Shown here one piece after another: positions 6,081 through 44,668 of a stretch of DNA of 46,414 nt. Source of the stretch: Bacillus sp. 522_BSPC (GTDB lineage Bacteria > Bacillota > Bacilli > Bacillales > Cytobacillaceae); contig NZ_JVDT01000153.1 of NCBI RefSeq assembly GCF_001076885.1, forward strand, positions 1 through 46,414, in the 5' to 3' direction. The first letter of the stretch is position 1. Each line of letters opens with the position of its first letter. The notes beneath the pieces were generated by a model. That model had not been told where the DNA came from and ran no database searches. It saw only the letters and a program-made list of their open reading frames with translations. The translations under genes and the position numbers were made by a program.

Positions 6081-6100
6081 GCCCCCGTTAGCTGAACAAG
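6081..6100. repeat. dispersed intergenic motif, copy 1
   Basis: GCCCCCGTTAGCTGAACAAG. Related copies with the core GCNCCCGTTA occur at 7797, 12033, 15927, 19592 and 36912, always between genes. Confidence 0.5.
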
Positions 6101-16633: not shown

Positions 16634-19048
16634 CTATTTATCCTTCACTCTCATCAGTCGTAAACTATTTAATGCTACCAAAATAGTAGCTCCCATATCT
16701 GAAAGAATAGCAATCCAAAGCGTTAACCAGCCTGGAATAACCAATAGTAAAGCAATTAATTTAATTCCAATAGCAAAAGTGATGTTAGCTTTGATGATAT
16801 TTAGCGTTTTTCGACTGAGTCTTACTGCAAATGGAAGTTTGCTTAAATCGTCTCCCATTAAGGCTATATCAGCTGTTTCGATTGCAGTATCTGTACCAGC
16901 CCCGCCCATTGCTATTCCGACAGTGGATGCAGCAAGTGCAGGAGCATCATTAACGCCATCGCCAATCATAGCTACGTTACCATGCTCCGATTGCATTTTT
17001 TTAATAAAATCTAATTTATCCTGTGGCATCAGTTCGGATTGAATATCAGATACGCCTACATGTGCACCAATTGCATTTGCGGTACCTTGATTATCACCAG
17101 TTAGCATTATTGTTTGCTTAATTCCTAACTGGTGAAGTTTTTGAATCACATTTTTGCTTGTCTCACGTACTTCATCTGCAACCGCAATTACACCGAGGAT
17201 TGTTTGTTCCGTTCCAATGATCATGGCTGTTTTTCCTTGATTTTGTAGGATTTTCACATTGTTTTCAAACTCAAGGCTAAAATCGGAAACATTTAATTCC
17301 TTAAAAAGTCTGGGACTACCAATATAATAAGTTGTTCCGTTTACAACCCCTTTTATACCTCGCCCAGTAATCGAAGTGAAGTCTTCCACTTGCACATTCG
17401 AATAAGGAATATTATCTTGCTCAGCCCTCTGCATAATTGCTGAAGCAAGTGGATGTTGTGAACGATATTCTAAAGCTGTAATAATGGAAAATAGCTCTTT
17501 TTCTTCCACTTGATTATTTAATACTTTAAAATCTGTTACCACTGGTACACCTTTTGTCAGTGTTCCTGTTTTATCAAATGCGATTGCCTTGATGGCTCCC
17601 AATTCCTCCAAATAGGCACCGCCTTTAATCAACACACCTTTTTTAGCAGCATTTCCAATTGCCGAAACAATCGAAATTGGAGTAGAAATTACTAATGCAC
17701 AAGGACACCCAACTACAAGTACTGCTAATCCTTGGTAAACCCATGTATCCCAACCTCCACCAAAGAATAAAGGTGGAACGACTGCAACCAAGGCTGCAAT
17801 AACCATAATGATCGGAGTGTAATATTTTGCAAACTTATCTACGAATGCTTGGGCTGGAGCACGCTCCCCTTGTGCTTCTTCAACAAGATGAATAATTTTG
17901 GCAATGGTTGTATCTTCTACATATTTGGTGATTTTTACTTCAAGTAATCCCTCTTCGTTAAGCGTACCTGCAAATACTTCATCATCTACCGTTTTGGAAA
18001 CAGGGACTGATTCTCCTGTTATAGCTGCCTGATTGACAGCCGACAAGCCATTAACAACTAGCCCATCCATGGCAATTTTTTGCCCTGGTTTGACAATCAT
18101 AATATCGCCTACAACAATATCATCTACATGGATCATTATTTCCTGACCATTTCGTCTAACAAGTGCTTCTTTTGGGGCAATATCCATCAATGAACGAATG
18201 GACTGTCTTGCTCTGTCCATAGAGAAACGTTCAAGAGCTTCACTGATTGCAAACAGAATGACAACAATGGACGCCTCTGCCCATTCACCGATGATGGCAG
18301 CTCCAATAACGGCAACTGTCATCAGGGTTTTCATGTCGAAATCAAAGCGTATCAAATTTTGAAAACCAACTTTAAATAGTGAATATCCGCCAATTACAAT
18401 TGAACCTACAAATAACATGGAAGTTACGAGGTTATCTTCTCCATTTACAAAGTGAGAAAGGTAACCAAAAGCAATTAGTAATGTGGCAAACAGTAATGTA
18501 CTATGTTTTTTATAAAATGGTATTTTCTCTTCTTTTTGAACCTTGTTGTCCTCTCTGGTCTCTTTTGTCGTTTGATTCGCCAGTTTTTCAGGAAATACTT
18601 TAAGATTCTCGAAAGCACCTGCTTTTTCAAGCTCTTCAAGGCTTGTATTTCCGAAAACATCAATTTTAGAAGCTCCAAAGTTTACTTTTGCATCCTGAAC
18701 TCCTGATAGTTGTTTTACATTTTTTTCAAACTTTCCAGCACAGTTTGCACAGGAAAATCCCTCAACACGATAAACATTTTTATCTTCAATTACCACAGGT
18801 TCGACCCGTCTTCTTGCTTTCTCTGGTACCACTTTAAGATTCTCGAAAGCACCAGCCTCTTCTAGTTCTTCAACGGTTGCATTTCCAAATACATCAATTT
18901 TAGAAGCTCCAAAATTGACTTTAGCATCCTGTACTCCTGGTAGTTGTTTTACATTTTTTTCGAATTTCCCTGCACAGTTTGCACAGGAGAAACCCTCCAC
19001 ACGATAAACATTTTTATCTTCTATTAAGGTTTTTGCTGTATTATCCAA
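16634..19048 (-). CDS. cadA: CadA-type cadmium/zinc P1B-ATPase with two N-terminal HMA domains
   Basis: An 804-residue exporter. Two almost identical metal-binding domains come first ([15 protein letters not shown], CxxC at 22-25 and 100-103), then the P1B core with [26 protein letters not shown] and GDGVNDAP, ending [17 protein letters not shown] with the Asp typical of zinc/cadmium pumps. It is about 77 residues longer than single-HMA CadA proteins because of the domain duplication. The start is TTG within the end of cadC (8-base overlap) behind GAAGGAGG. It is expressed with cadC and is expected to export cadmium, zinc and possibly lead. Confidence 0.95.
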
Positions 19049-19406
19049 CTTTCGTAGCCTCCTTCTGATGCTCGAAGGCTTTTTCTACGAGCTGTTTAAC
19101 ATGCTCATCATCTAGTGAATAATAGACTAATTTTCCTTCTTTACGGTATGTTGCTATACCTAGGTTTTTCAATAATCTTAAATGATGGGATGCCGTAGCC
19201 GTTGAAGATTCAATAATATTCGCTACATCACAAACACATAACTCTCCCTCTAAAGATAAAACGTAAGCAATTTTAACCCTTGTATCATCTGACAGAGCCT
19301 TGAAAACTTTCGCTACATCCATAGGATTCTGTTTAGCAAGGTCTTTTTTAGCCCTGTTTACTTTATCTTCGTGAATACAGGTAACTTCACACATATCTTT
19401 CATCAT
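19041..19406 (-). CDS. cadC: CadC, ArsR/SmtB-family metal-sensing repressor
   Basis: A 121-residue winged-helix repressor. The DNA-binding helix region is [16 protein letters not shown]. Metal ligands are present: C6 and C10 near the N-terminus and C57 and C59 in ELCVCDVAN, matching the four cysteines that bind cadmium or lead in S. aureus CadC when offset by one residue. Metal binding releases the operator. GGAGGG lies upstream of tandem ATG codons at 19406. It leads the cad operon and overlaps cadA by eight bases. Two palindromic candidate operators flank its promoter. Confidence 0.93.
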
Positions 19407-19551: not shown

Positions 19552-19601
19552 AGAGAGCTTAACCAAATTTTAAAGCATCTTAAACATAACTGCCCCGTTA
19601 G

Positions 19602-19820
19602 CCATCCATGAAGCGAAAAATCAGCGCTTCACCACAGAGAATGAAAATGGTTAAGAACCGTCAATACTGATTCTACGGCTGGGAGAGGAAGGTCGCTTAA
19701 CTATGGTGCGTTAGAGCCCATCCGTTAGTCTGACTCCAACGACCACGGTGCACCACTGACTGTCGCTCCCTTTCGGGAAGCACACATGGTAGATTAATCC
19801 CATTCTGGTTGCTGCACCAG
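19602..19820 (+). ncRNA. candidate bridge RNA of the second IS110-family element
   Basis: About 250 non-coding bases precede the transposase and fold locally: GAAGCG/CGCTTC (19610/19625), TCCC-TTTC-GGGA (19767-19778), and GGTGC/GCACC (19705/19750) enclosing a loop. Inside the loop CGTTAG (19709-19714) and CCGTTAG (19722-19728) equal the left flank. Farther on, CATGGTAG (19785-19792) equals the element's right end exactly, and GGTTGCTG (19807-19814) can pair with AGCCATCC at the left end with two wobbles and one mismatch. This order, a target loop and then a donor loop, is that known for IS621-type bridge RNA. The right target guide is unclear. Confidence 0.65.
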
Positions 19821-19859
19821 CCTCCAATTATATTCAGAGCCGTAGGAAGGATGTTTTCA

Positions 19860-21083
19860 ATGGATGTAGTCATTGAAAGAGCATGTGGTATGGATGTTCA
19901 TAAGGACAATATTACTGCATGTATTATGACCCCAGAAGGAAAGGAGATTCAAACGTTTTCTACTAAAACTGTATTTCTATTACAGTTGGTTGACTGGATT
20001 AAACAGCATAACTGTACTCATGTTGCCATGGAGAGTACGAGTGTATACTGGAAACCTATTGTGAATTTACTAGAAGCGGAAGATATTGAGTTTCTAGTTG
20101 TGAATGCCCAACATATGAAGGCAGTCCCAGGACGTAAAACTGATGTCAAAGATGCAGAATGGATTGCCAAGCTTCTTCGTCATGGACTCTTAAAAGCTAG
20201 TTATATTCCTGATCGTAATCAACGAGAATTACGTGAACTAGTTCGATATCGCAGGAGTATTATTGAAGAACGAGCTAGGCAACATAATCGCATTCAAAAG
20301 GTATTAGAGGGTGCAAATATTAAGCTAGCTTCTGTTGTTTCGGACGTTATGGGAGTTTCAGCTCGAGATATGCTTAACGCTATTGCCGAAGGCGAAGAAG
20401 ATCCTGAAAAACTAGCAAACTTCGCTCGACGTACAATGAAAAAGAAAAAAGATGAACTAATGCTCGCCCTAAAAGGCTATATCAATTCACATCAACGCCT
20501 TATGTTGAAAACAATTTTGAAGCATATTGATTTTTTAACTGAGCAAATCGAGATGCTCGACCAAAAGGTCGCTGAAAGAGTTAGCTCCCATCAAGAAGAC
20601 GTGGACCTACTAGATTCAATTCCTGGCATAGCTACAAGAATGGCTGAGCAGATTCTATCAGAAATTGGAACTGATGTTAAAAAACAATTCCCAAGTGCAG
20701 CTCATATGTGTTCTTGGGCTGGTTTGGTTCCAGGTCACAACGAAAGTGCCGGCAAAAGGAAATCAGCTAAAACAAAAAAAGGGAACAAGTATTTGAGATC
20801 AGCATTAACAGAAGCAGCCCATTCTGTAAGAGGATCTAAGAACTATCTCGGAGCACTGTATAGGCGTACAGCCTCACGAAAAGGTAAGAAACGAGCTGGA
20901 ATAGTAGTAGCCCATGCCATGTTGAGAATTGCTTATTACCTCTTAACTCGAAAAGAGATGTATGTAGACTTAGGCGAAGACTACTTTGATAAACAGAGGC
21001 AGCAATCCATCGTGCGACATTCACTCCGAAGACTTGAAAGTTTAGGATACACAGTTACTTTACAAGAACCTGAAGCATCTTAA
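19860..21083 (+). CDS. IS110-family transposase (DEDD recombinase)
   Basis: About 407 residues from the chosen start. The N-terminal DEDD domain shows ACGMDVHKDNITACI, VAMESTSVYWKP and GRKTDVKDAEWIAKL; a coiled-coil middle follows; the C-terminal Tnp20 domain shows IPGIATRMAEQILSEIG, FPSAAHMCSWAGLVPG and NESAGKRKSAKTKKG with the likely catalytic serine. The start at 19860 has GGAAGG nine bases upstream; the frame is open to 19809, inside the putative RNA region. It is unrelated at close range to the transposase at 363-1772. The frame is intact, so it may be active. Confidence 0.93.
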   Translation: MDVVIERACGMDVHKDNITACIMTPEGKEIQTFSTKTVFLLQLVDWIKQHNCTHVAMESTSVYWKPIVNLLEAEDIEFLVVNAQHMKAVPGRKTDVKDAEWIAKLLRHGLLKASYIPDRNQRELRELVRYRRSIIEERARQHNRIQKVLEGANIKLASVVSDVMGVSARDMLNAIAEGEEDPEKLANFARRTMKKKKDELMLALKGYINSHQRLMLKTILKHIDFLTEQIEMLDQKVAERVSSHQEDVDLLDSIPGIATRMAEQILSEIGTDVKKQFPSAAHMCSWAGLVPGHNESAGKRKSAKTKKGNKYLRSALTEAAHSVRGSKNYLGALYRRTASRKGKKRAGIVVAHAMLRIAYYLLTRKEMYVDLGEDYFDKQRQQSIVRHSLRRLESLGYTVTLQEPEAS

Positions 21084-21219
21084 TCCAGTCCATATTCCTA
21101 CAATAGATCCATGAATCAGGCGCGCTTCCCTTTTAAAAAAATGAATGAGCTGCGTCTTCTTAAGTATTGCCTTTTTCACGAAATTACAGAAGTTTATTTT
21201 CATGGTAGTTGAATAAGGA

Positions 21220-21615
21220 TTATATACTCTCAAAATAGTTAGCCAGCTTTTCTTTTTCATTTTCACTTAATTGCTTATTTTCTAGTTCAAGTTCTTTATT
21301 CTTTTTCTCCAGTTTTTCAATCCTTCTTTTAAGTGAAGCTATTACAGCGTTTTGATTATTTTCATCCCGTTTTATCCTTGAATCTACAAACTTTTCTTCT
21401 TGTTGATTTCGTAAGAAATTGATACGCTCTTTAAGAGCTGAATGGTTATACAGCGTTGCTTTGCTCACTCCAGCTTCTTTCGCTACGCTATTAAAGTTAA
21501 TTGCCTTAGAACTCTTTATAAGGCGTTTAATAGCTTTTTCAACCTTATCTTTAGTTTCTTGCTTTCTCTTTTCATGTAGCCGCCTTAATTGCTCCTCACG
21601 ATCAAAACTAGCCAT
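21220..21615 (-). CDS. tnpC: TnpC-like protein of Tn554 family
   Basis: A 131-residue charged protein: an N-terminal part with a helix-turn-helix-like segment (INFNSVAKEAGVSKATLYNH) and a long C-terminal coiled coil (RRIEKLEKKNKELELENKQLSE). It matches the TnpC/DUF6262 type that accompanies the two recombinases of Tn554-like elements and influences orientation and frequency of transposition. ATG at 21615 follows AAAGGTG and overlaps the end of tnpB by eight bases; a GTG at 21624 is possible but lies inside the ribosome site. Confidence 0.82.
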   Translation of the reverse strand: MASFDREEQLRRLHEKRKQETKDKVEKAIKRLIKSSKAINFNSVAKEAGVSKATLYNHSALKERINFLRNQQEEKFVDSRIKRDENNQNAVIASLKRRIEKLEKKNKELELENKQLSENEKEKLANYFESI

Positions 21616-23746
21616 GTCTAACACCTTTCTTTTTCTTACGTTCTAATTGTCTCTTCATGCGGTCAAATCGACCAAAAATAACATTACCTTCTTTGATTGT
21701 TTCGTAAATATTTTGGTACCTTTCCAAGTTTTTTTCGTTTGCCTTAACCATATCTTCACGACCATACTCTTTAGATGCTTCAATCCACTTTGTGGTAGTT
21801 TCTATAAGAAGTTCGTACTTTTTAACATCAAAACTTGTCATACCTACCGCTAAATCAAAACAAGGTTTTCCATCGTTCGCAGTGAGACAAGGTGGTTCTG
21901 CTGCCAATGGGCAATTCCCATTGACCCTTGCTCGACAGGTCCCATAAGGGTTATCTAAGGCATTTAACTTCTCATCTTTCCACAACATATCAAGAATGTC
22001 TTTAGGGATTTGTTCCTTTTCGGAGACCTGATGAATTTCCCCATTTAAGTCAAAGGCAAATACACCTTGTCTCACAACTTTCTCAAATTCTTTACGTTTC
22101 GTATCATCTAATAGACGAGCATATAGAATGGTCATTTCGGGTGATGCGTGGGCTAATAACTCCTGCACCGTTATAATATCAGCTCCACCATTTATCATTT
22201 TTACTCCATAAGTATGTCGGAACTGGTGATTTTTGAAGTGAAATAAATTTCCTGATTCATCTGTTATATTCTTTTTTAACGCTAATTTGTTTAGTTCTTC
22301 TCGAACAAAATTCTGACTAAAGGGTCTTCCCTTACGAGGACCTCGGTAGCGAACAAAAAGGTATCTTTCAGGATTGTTATCATCATTGCTGTTTTGCTTG
22401 GAACGGTCAATTAAAACTGCAATTATATCCGCTAGATGATCATCAATGGGGATTTTATGACCTATTACATACGTCTTTTCAATATCTGTTGTAAGATTTG
22501 ACTTTCCATTTATTTTACCTAAACAATCCTGCGTTAATCCCAATGTATCGCTTATGCGAAGCCCTGTTTTGAAAGCAATCCAGACAATTGGCTGTACATC
22601 TGGATGAAGGTCATTTAGATTATTAAACAGTTGTTCCAATACATAGTCAGGTATGTAATCAATATCATCCAATGATTTTTTAGGGAGATTAGGAAAGTCT
22701 TCAGGATATATTAGACGAAACACCATTTCTTCAGGTGCAAAATCCTCGAACTTCTCTAAAATTTGAAGATCTCTTATGAAGGCACGAACACACTTTAATG
22801 CTTGACGAACATATTTTTTAGGATTGGAATTTTTCTTATTTAATTTGGTCTTTATATATTCATTTAACTCTTCTATGTACTTTTCTATATGTTTTCTTTC
22901 AAGTTCTTTAAAATCGTTCCATTTTGGATTTTGTTTTGAAATTGAGTTTAAAAAAGGAATAGTGTATGTTCCATAACTTCGAGCTGTACCCCAGGTGAAG
23001 TTTTTGCCGCTGATTAGACGACCTTTTAAATATTCTTTAAATATTTTACGGAAATTTTTATTCTCTATATTTGAAAAATCAATGTGATAACCACTTGTTG
23101 ATTCATTGAATCCTATCCCATATTTTTTATACAGCACCCGTATATCCCATCGGTCCTTCTCCCATTCATCACGGGTGTCTGTTAATTGAAAAAGTGTATT
23201 ATAAATCCGTGCTAAAAAGCCATCTATTTCCGTACGGGCTACGATTTCTTTCCCTCTCCACTTCTTGATGTAACTCGTCTTTTCTCCTTTACCATTCAAC
23301 CAAAAGGTCCAAAGTTTTTGCTCTTTATTGATGTCTAAATCAAGAAGGGAAGTGAGATTTGGGTGCTTTTCGTTTAAATACTCAGCCAGTTTTTTTAACG
23401 AGCCTGAGATACTTTTAAATATAGTCCTTATTCCCCAACGGTCTGAAAAAATTTGATTGTAGTAAACAAACTTAATCTCCATGTTGACGTTTGGATTTTC
23501 GCAGTTGAAGTAAATGTTATTTACTATTCCTTTTCTCTTGTTATATTGCTCTTCAAAATTAGGGATTTTACCAATCTCGTGTATATTCCAAATATCATTG
23601 ACTAAAAAGTAATCATCATTCACAACTCTTTTTGTTACTTTTCCATCGTTGGAAATTTCTTTAACCTCGTAAGAGGAAAGAGTGGAAGTGATTAAGTCCC
23701 AATATTCGCTTTTAAGGATTGAATTACTCTGTATGATATTATCCAA
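21608..23746 (-). CDS. tnpB: TnpB-like tyrosine recombinase of Tn554 family
   Basis: A 712-residue protein, the second recombinase of Tn554-type elements. The catalytic domain is in the second half: TGLRISDTLGLTQDC (first Arg), HQFRHTYGVKM (His-x-x-Arg), LLAHASPEMTILYARL (His and the nucleophile Tyr). Near the C-terminus a Cys-rich stretch (CRARVNGNCPLAAEPPCLTANDGKPC) may bind zinc. The start is TTG at 23746 behind AGGAGGG. It is somewhat longer than the Tn554 prototype. The stop overlaps the tnpC start, showing coupled translation. Confidence 0.92.
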   Translation of the reverse strand: MDNIIQSNSILKSEYWDLITSTLSSYEVKEISNDGKVTKRVVNDDYFLVNDIWNIHEIGKIPNFEEQYNKRKGIVNNIYFNCENPNVNMEIKFVYYNQIFSDRWGIRTIFKSISGSLKKLAEYLNEKHPNLTSLLDLDINKEQKLWTFWLNGKGEKTSYIKKWRGKEIVARTEIDGFLARIYNTLFQLTDTRDEWEKDRWDIRVLYKKYGIGFNESTSGYHIDFSNIENKNFRKIFKEYLKGRLISGKNFTWGTARSYGTYTIPFLNSISKQNPKWNDFKELERKHIEKYIEELNEYIKTKLNKKNSNPKKYVRQALKCVRAFIRDLQILEKFEDFAPEEMVFRLIYPEDFPNLPKKSLDDIDYIPDYVLEQLFNNLNDLHPDVQPIVWIAFKTGLRISDTLGLTQDCLGKINGKSNLTTDIEKTYVIGHKIPIDDHLADIIAVLIDRSKQNSNDDNNPERYLFVRYRGPRKGRPFSQNFVREELNKLALKKNITDESGNLFHFKNHQFRHTYGVKMINGGADIITVQELLAHASPEMTILYARLLDDTKRKEFEKVVRQGVFAFDLNGEIHQVSEKEQIPKDILDMLWKDEKLNALDNPYGTCRARVNGNCPLAAEPPCLTANDGKPCFDLAVGMTSFDVKKYELLIETTTKWIEASKEYGREDMVKANEKNLERYQNIYETIKEGNVIFGRFDRMKRQLERKKKKGVRHG

Positions 23747-44160: not shown

Positions 44161-44309
44161 CTACTTTCTTGCTTCCTAGATAAACAGTGGAGTCAGACTC
44201 TTATGAGATTTCTCATTTAAGTTCAGCACTAACTAGAGTTGAGACAATTCTTCTCCCAACACATATTCTCCCTCCTCTATATCCACGTAGAGTAGCTTAC
44301 TTACAAATA

Positions 44310-44470
44310 GGCAGGTCTCCTGACTTAGGATCATCACTCCTTCTCTCCTTCCCATCTAGTTAAGACAGTGGATATGAGAATTTGTTCCTCCTTACAGTGG
44401 CGGGACCGCGCCGGATTCTAACCGGTCTTCCCTTTTAAGCCATGAATGGGAATTCATAAGCACCTATTTG
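44310..44470 (-). ncRNA. cobalamin (AdoCbl) riboswitch
   Basis: The conserved parts are all visible on the minus strand: AATAGGTGC at the 5' side (rc of 44460-44468), AAAAGGGAA followed by CCGGTTAGAATCCGG, the core GGTCCCGCCACTGT, AAGGAG, and the 3' B12 box GTCAGGAGACCTGCCT (rc of 44311-44326). It binds adenosylcobalamin and stops expression of metE when B12 is present, since the B12-dependent enzyme MetH can then be used. It is the second switch in the leader. Confidence 0.95.
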
Positions 44471-44510
44471 CGCTATTTAATTTTCAGTTCATTTCTATAA
44501 TAAAAAATAA

Positions 44511-44539
44511 AAACCTCCCTTTATAAAAAAGAGAGGTTT
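44511..44539 (-). terminator. terminator of the SAM riboswitch
   Basis: AAACCTCtCTTT pairs with AAAGgGAGGTTT on the minus strand and is followed by TTATTTTTTATTA. It is placed directly after the SAM aptamer, as in standard S-box leaders. Confidence 0.85.
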
Positions 44540-44559
44540 CGTCGTGTATCTTTATCCCC

Positions 44560-44668
44560 CTCTTATCTTTCAAAGCATCATCGCTTTGCTGGAATTAGCA
44601 CCTTTTCTTAAAAAAGAATGGTTGCTGAGGTATCAACGGGCCAGTCCCTCCACCTCTCTACATAAGAG
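44560..44668 (-). ncRNA. SAM-I riboswitch (S-box)
   Basis: On the minus strand the P1 stem CTCTTAT/ATAAGAG (44662-44668 and 44560-44566) closes an aptamer with AGAGAGGTGGAGGGACTGGC, CCTCAGCAACC, GGTGCTAATTCC and AAAGATAAGAG, the full S-box consensus. Binding of S-adenosylmethionine favours the downstream terminator. It is the first of two switches in the metE leader. Confidence 0.96.

Follow-up and report, generated by a model that had tools for sequence, protein, structure and literature searches.

The question raised by this locus is whether an IS110-type insertion sequence in Bacillus sp. 522_BSPC carries, upstream of its recombinase gene, an RNA that chooses its insertion site, and in what order the guides of such an RNA are arranged. 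The locus is part of contig NZ_JVDT01000153.1, all 46,414 nucleotides of which are here termed the window. Comparison with homologues argues strongly that positions 19602-21208 are an IS110-type insertion sequence with a left-end bridge RNA of about 156 nt that guides target choice. As an IS110-family member with a bridge RNA, the element is of an already known kind. What appears to be new is the order of the guides and the existence of derivatives that have no recombinase, IS621 and ISEc21 being compared here by their text descriptions. The main parts of the element, apart from the RNA, are as follows.

19595..19601, forward strand: left target half CCGTT plus core AG, in the left flank; covaries with RNA 19722-19726
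19602..21208, forward strand: IS110-type insertion element, 1607 bp with one core copy counted (at the right end), from homologue comparison
19602..19612, forward strand: left end, seen directly
19610..19630, forward strand: left-end hairpin GAAGCG/CGCTTC, upstream of the promoter, by eye
19642..19670, forward strand: putative bridge-RNA promoter of sigma-A type; homologues show similar motifs on visual inspection
19860..21083, forward strand: IS110 recombinase, 407 amino acids from the ATG at 19860 (Pfam, NCBIfam, HMMER)
21084..21208, forward strand: right end, 125 bp, with AAGTATTGCCTTTTT and terminal TTTTCATGGTAG
21207..21214, forward strand: core AG (right copy) plus right target half TTGAAT, from complementarity covariation

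Beyond the left boundary, between AG and CCATCC, and beyond the right boundary, directly after CATGGTAG, copies are unrelated except for the target among the relatives listed, and the element is therefore delimited as 19602-21208. The end at 21218 that was first proposed is incorrect. The proposed core AG is borne out by the homologues. AG is present at 19600-19601 and 21207-21208 and is common to target and donor; the target of the window element is CCCCGTTAGTTTAAG. The heptamer CCATGAA (19606-19612) is subterminal in the left end and has an inverted copy at 21199-21205. Two hexamers, TGAAAA (19642-19647) and TACTGA (19665-19670), are 17 bp apart and probably form the sigma-A promoter of the bridge RNA. 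By eye, the left-end hairpin displays paired changes in homologues (GCAGCGC/GCGCTGC and GTAGCGC/GCGCTAC).

The translated recombinase displays the DEDD RuvC-type and Transposase_20 domains (PF01548, 141.7 bits; PF02371, 76.7 bits) and scores 287.7 bits with NF033542 of NCBIfam, the cut-off being 140. The 407 amino acids are counted from the presumed start at 19860; a second in-frame ATG is found three codons further upstream. In a HMMER alignment to 8wt6, the catalytic residues of IS621 correspond to D12, E58, D95, D98 and S296 of the window protein. The protein is related to IS621 and ISCro4, both of known structure, and its relation to IS621 is a distant protein similarity only (phmmer E 1e-16). 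In a protein tree the deep order of IS110 and IS1111 types is not resolved.

The left junction is also fixed by an uninterrupted target. The cadA-cadC-DUF6262 neighbourhood is found without the element in Staphylococcus plasmids: the joined flanks of the window element, searched against plasmids, matched 36 records, 25 of them from Staphylococcus, and in the best 20 of the 36 matches bases 1-166 of the query are covered at about 87%. The Staphylococcus aureus plasmid SAP019A (L182) has the uninterrupted target beside cadC with a single AG. There the left flank of the window element runs via CCCCGTTAG into TTTAAGTGCA, and likewise via AACTGCCCCGTTAG directly into TTTAAGTGCATCC. As the right flank in SAP019A is unlike that of the window, this empty site proves the left junction only, and the right junction rests on homologue comparison. 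An empty site was not found in the genomes of relatives: in the nearest right-side relative (L168) the left flank is missing, and the match to the right flank begins only some 36 bases into it.

The element's neighbours in the window (16634-19406 and 21220-23746) are a P-ATPase, called cadmium-type after the Staphylococcus annotation, and an ArsR regulator, next to which are a DUF6262 protein and a recombinase of phage-integrase type. The Staphylococcus plasmids share the ATPase, the regulator and the DUF6262 part with the window. Elsewhere in the window, cobalamin and SAM riboswitches lie in tandem on the minus strand (44293-44668), upstream of minus-strand genes.

The target resembles a short repeat near the 3′ ends of genes in Bacillaceae. 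The exact sequence CCCGTTAGTTNAA is present in 102 of 151 genomes, some sites being close together, as a raw count. An abundant target repeat was not found in the host genome, which has one exact site and, with one mismatch allowed, 14 sites, fewer than the reversed control (25). By eye, the repeat-like target adjoins minus-strand genes at their 3′ ends, and some copies are close to terminator-like hairpins. It is seen at window positions 6085, 7800, 15930 and 19595, three of these being further copies or near-copies besides the element's own.

Relatives were drawn from the matches listed for 201 genomes, host included, of which 137 gave some match, and additionally from the best 80 of 531 loci in named genomes and from 40 stretches taken by coordinates. 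After orientation there are 144 elements. Protein identity reaches 55% or more in 106, of which 97 were aligned and 90 are distinct in guides and flanks. The left guide was testable in 81 elements and the right in 82. One element (L096), whose upstream stretch would not align, was left out, as were elements at contig ends without flanks; three (L148, L151, L152) were left out of a distant clade that is 38-50% identical. The parts of the RNA that these comparisons delineate are listed below.

19674..19829 (approximate ends), forward strand: bridge RNA, about 156 nt, from alignment A1, its consensus fold and model R1
19677..19822, forward strand: outer stem GGCT (19677-19680) / AGCC (19819-19822), consensus fold
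19695..19702, forward strand: right target guide GCTTAACT, pairs with the top strand of core and right flank; 5′ side
19705..19719, forward strand: hairpin GGTGC (19705-19709) / GCCC (19716-19719) between the target guides, consensus fold
19722..19728, forward strand: left target guide CCGTTAG, equal to the left flank, pairs with the bottom strand; 3′ side
19747..19818, forward strand: donor-binding region, closed by GGTGCA (19747-19752) / TGCACC (19813-19818), consensus fold
19785..19792, forward strand: left donor guide CATGGTAG, equal to the right end; donor scan and permutation
19807..19813, forward strand: candidate right donor guide GGTTGCT against core and left end, no covariation

Two long matches described in the preliminary description are confirmed in the sequence: CCGTTAG (19722-19728) equals the left flank at 19595-19601, and CATGGTAG (19785-19792) equals the right end at 21201-21208. 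In the non-coding stretch of 258 bases a given 8-mer would occur by chance in about 0.4% of cases and a given 7-mer in about 1.6% (arithmetic), so that both matches are unlikely to have arisen by chance; tests on homologues are decisive.

A covariation scan compared every RNA alignment column with 34 target positions, in the same and in the complementary sense, which makes 14,620 tests; it used 75 distinct insertions of relatives, down-weighted to an effective 44.5. The four top values form the left-guide diagonal (RNA 19723-19726 against target positions -6 to -3, same sense, z 6.5-8.4), and 19722 with -7 ranks seventh (z 7.3); the covariation shows the left-guide role of CCGTTAG. Fifth is a complementary right-guide pair, 19700/+1 (z 4.6), with 19699/+2 and 19698/+3 in eighth and ninth place (z 3.6 and 3.1), such that target positions +1 to +3 covary by complementarity with RNA 19700-19698. 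The right target guide, which the preliminary description had called not clear, is accordingly found at 19695-19702. The sixth value, 19703/+4 in the same sense (z 4.4), is on neither guide diagonal, and 19703/-3 is another off-diagonal single pair (z 4.9); such pairs are as linked columns would give. Among the 45 scan pairs listed, the only diagonals of at least three pairs are those of the two guides.

The same scan bears on the standard IS621 layout, in which the left target guide (CGTTAG at 19709 or CCGTTAG at 19722) would be 5′ and the right guide further 3′. Such a layout is highly improbable here. The family and the left-end location of the RNA do fit IS621 and ISEc21, and single complementary pairs 3′ of the left guide are present in the scan (19738/+2, z 3.1). 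However, the complementary pairs in the top ten all fall on a single diagonal to the 5′ side of the left guide, the 45 listed pairs contain no diagonal 3′ of 19728, and class-specific right guides are all at the same 5′ place.

The hexamer CGTTAG at 19709-19714, which had also been put forward as a guide, does equal part of the left flank, but the equality is attributed to chance. It gives no diagonal among the 45 listed pairs (19712/+1 alone, z 2.9), and homologues vary there independently of their own target.

Permutation of flanks among elements, in which related sequences are only partly independent and are not down-weighted, gives the same result. The left guide matches its flank at 4.975 of 6 positions versus 3.825 ± 0.068 when permuted (81 elements), and the right guide at 3.909 of 6 versus 3.271 ± 0.072 (82 elements); none of 20,000 permutations was as high in either case, nor when the right-guide value became 3.884 after re-reading of L083 and L097. 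The flanks of other copies, proposed as a check on the target loop, match it well: all five non-core guide bases agree with the element's own left flank in 77 of 81 elements, and four of five in the remaining four. The right target guide is looser than the left, with 71 of 82 elements reaching at least three of five at +1 to +5 and 11, L070 included, falling below three.

On a different reading, the left non-coding region is conserved for a role as 5′ UTR or regulator in recombinase expression, and a target preference of the protein produces the guide matches as by-products. The region is directly upstream of the gene, and as many as 49 of the 81 elements carry one common left guide, so that many matches could be inherited. 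This explanation is nevertheless scarcely credible: flanks change along with their guides across 19 left-guide classes and 26 right-guide classes, the latter including two misparses, the match remains above permutations with one member per class, and the RNA is kept and conserved in recombinase-less elements, described below. Guides follow targets across homologues, and the pattern of an unchanged target loop at different targets was not seen.

Individual classes illustrate the agreement. The left guides CTATAG, CTTTAG, GGGCAG, CCGCAG, CATGGTAG and GTGTCAG are each found with an identical flank. Right guide GAGACTCC is found with flank AGGAGTCTC, and ACTTACT with AGTAAG, each guide being complementary to its flank and at the same 5′ place in the RNA. 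Two further cases are outside the count: L053, with right guide GTTTGTGTT at the same 5′ place and complementary to its flank AGCACAA (a further copy in its genome, L138, has one mismatch), and L022, whose right guide AGGCTCT is complementary to its own right flank over five flank bases only.

A relative that is 62% identical (L021) has CATGGTAG as its left guide and is located in the right-end junction of a window-type copy; it appears to be retargeted onto its own relatives. A subgroup (L016, L091, L095, L098) targets CCGCAG or CCATAG followed by GAGTCT, and these targets lie within a GC-rich, REP-like repeat.

The fold of the RNA is derived from alignment A1, which consists of 49 sequences, and from model R1, built from A1 with the window sequence included. 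The window RNA scores 183 bits with R1, whose training set contains it. In the consensus fold 9 of 30 pairs show double changes, and the covariation energy term is small (-1.08). The hairpin between the target guides has three of four pairs with both sides changed, in 2, 1 and 4 of the 49 sequences, and a further hairpin precedes the left donor guide. Since GGTGCA/TGCACC closes the donor region and GGTGC at 19705-19709 pairs with GCCC, the GGTGC/GCACC stem earlier thought to close the target loop is rejected. Folded alone, the window RNA is no better than shuffled sequences (z -0.32), and Rfam at gathering thresholds has no match at the element. Under strict filters and with up to 15 candidates scored per genome, R1 finds the RNA in at least 39 of the 201 genomes, host included, at no fewer than 78 places; it is weak in the distant clade (best E 0.0006).

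The left donor guide covaries with the right end. The top two pairs of a donor scan over 71 elements, 19790 with right-end position -3 (z 7.1) and 19787 with -6 (z 6.4), are in exactly the CATGGTAG register. The match is 5.755 of 6 versus 5.045 ± 0.065 (53 combinations), and the highest of 20,000 permutations is 5.358.

For the right donor guide, seven registers were compared by permutation and the RNA was scanned position by position; no candidate was accepted. The pairing first suggested, of GGTTGCTG (19807-19814) with the left end AGCCATCC, is present in the sequence, but the match is weak and does not covary. Windows ending at 19680, 19813, 19711 and 19767 score nearly alike (4.81, 4.75, 4.52 and 4.42 of 7), and for this reason none is preferred; 19761-19767 falls within a conserved hairpin. 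The search in the distant clade was likewise negative (9,372 of 20,000 permutations, with 11 combinations, among them L027, which was read at the wrong place). A right donor guide on the 3′ (GGTTGCTG) side would give the donor loop an orientation opposite to that of the target loop, whereas one on the 5′ side would mean that the two loops are inverted together.

The preliminary description expected exactly the IS621 arrangement, and in this it fails. The right target guide is 5′ of the left, with the doubly changed hairpin between them. This target-guide order is the reverse of that described for IS621 and ISEc21 and the same as that reported for IS1111 RNAs. In the distant clade the left guide covaries (none of 20,000 permutations as high) and the right guide does not do so significantly (2,080 of 20,000; 23 elements), so that the case for a swapped order in this clade comes from the left guide and from inspection, by which the right guide is 5′ in the 23 combinations listed. 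Two families of a single, still more distant genome show the left guide on visual inspection.

As described in the published texts, the window element shares with IS621 a left-end bridge RNA with target and donor regions and a recombinase with DEDD plus serine residues (PMC11208160, PMC11208158), as well as left guides that pair with the bottom strand, right guides that pair with the top strand and a core dinucleotide included in the pairings (PMC11208160). The two differ in core (CT in IS621, AG here), in protein length (328 versus 407 amino acids) and in the order of the target guides. For the published IS621 RNA consensus, proteins were required to share at least 30% identity with IS621 across 80% of either sequence (PMC11208160), and on protein similarity it is unlikely to include the window clade. 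ISEc21, by its seekRNA description, also has a non-coding region upstream of tnp with two opposite-strand target matches, but its top-strand match is 3′ of the bottom-strand match, whereas in the window element it is 5′ (PMC11187229). Members of the IS1111 group (ISEc11, ISPa11, ISKpn4) are described with the top-strand match 5′ of the bottom-strand match, as here; however, they nearly always encode the RNA downstream of tnp, and have transposases of 330-350 amino acids (PMC11187229), whereas the window RNA is upstream. Subterminal inverted repeats of IS1111 are 7-17 bp; CCATGAA in the window has 7 bp, and by eye the repeats of L055 and L105 are shorter. The IS110 subgroup sensu stricto, with transposases of 395-455 amino acids and an upstream RNA (PMC11187229), is like the window element in both respects, and no guide map for it was found in the text of the literature searched.

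Elements without a recombinase form the second new aspect. A plasmid search with the element returned left-end matches without the gene, and at 31 of 194 RNA places, repeats of the same place included, the 1.5 kb downstream contain nothing similar to the window recombinase; of the 31, three are repeats, several are truncated, and L106 and L211 have less than 1.5 kb available. Ten gene-less elements with both ends recognised (L184, L185, L188-L194, L218) have a length of 370-380 bp and consist of promoter, RNA, a middle segment and right end. They are spread over several genera. Two are given as examples.

L184, 2009-2388: recombinase-less element
L185, 2007-2383: recombinase-less element

In a tree of 66 RNAs, 13 of 17 recombinase-less RNAs fall in one clade (support 99/96). 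Five changes of type are needed, three of them forced by well-supported branches, and none of 500 label shuffles was as low. In 11 clade members both the RNA and the right end are complete. Per pair of these, differences amount to 9.6% in the RNA and 27.6% in the middle segment, 2.9-fold less in the RNA. The corresponding values are 24% for the left end, raised by the lost left end of L219, and 8.5% for the last 24 bases. The left target guide is invariant, and the right target guide differs by 17%. Seven genomes have long matches to a gene-less element, and among the matches listed two (G098, G042) show a full-length relative, defined by at least 55% identity and no stops.

These elements of about 375 bp could be decayed leftovers whose RNA is conserved only through youth, which is possible but doubtful. 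In favour of decay, several of the 31 places are truncated, L219 has lost its left end and L194 is without the usual left target. On the other hand, thirteen are in a single well-supported clade, the RNA differs far less than the middle segment, and the guides of the unrelated L269, of another lineage, match by eye its own, different target. There the left flank (...TAAATAG) and right flank (CGGAAC) fit the guides TAAATAG and GCTCCGCT, the latter at 7 of 8 positions with the core.

Nine still shorter elements of 195-204 bp (L186, L187, L223-L226, L228, L231, L237) have ends only, without RNA or gene, and are found at the same kind of target (CCGTTAG-type, CTTTAG or CTATAG).

No description of bridge-RNA-only elements was found in a literature search that covered few subscription papers and not bioRxiv, nor in the text of PMC11208160. 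Coxiella QMITE2 was considered as a precedent for RNA-only derivatives and set aside, as its published description makes it a target of IS1111 and not a derivative.

It remains to consider whether the window copy is dead, its ends and guides being intact by descent alone. This is unlikely, even though the host genome has only one full copy and the left end of a 72% relative is cut. The gene is open with five of five catalytic residues, the guides match the copy's own flanks, and relatives 94-97% identical in protein occupy other sites in other genera. The preliminary description spoke of a working programmable recombinase with a readable guide RNA; the RNA is readable and the IS110 gene is open, and the word working is a presumption of activity from these features.

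Comparison at the level of sequence establishes the ends, both target guides, the left donor guide, the core AG and, for the left junction, the empty target. Circle formation, strand exchange and protein-RNA binding would be expected for the window element by analogy with IS621. The recombinase would excise the element as a circle in which the right end, AG and the left end are joined; RNA from the element's own left-end promoter would bind the recombinase; and exchange at the AG core would insert the element with no target duplication.

With a slight preference over its alternatives, it is hypothesized that the bridge RNA of this clade has, compared with IS621, an inverted target loop, with the target and donor DNA then being held differently (or that the donor loop is inverted too, with the right donor guide 5′ of CATGGTAG), and that guide-only transposons arose more than once, one of them radiating across genera under selection on its RNA while borrowing a recombinase. 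Interest in bridge recombinases stems from their use as programmable enzymes for DNA insertion. A clade with swapped target guides and an AG core tests the generality of parts of the IS621 mechanism and supplies a ready set of natural guide-target pairs. Recombinase-free elements with a conserved bridge RNA would be natural evidence of the RNA acting in trans, and would give a simple model of guide-RNA parasitism.
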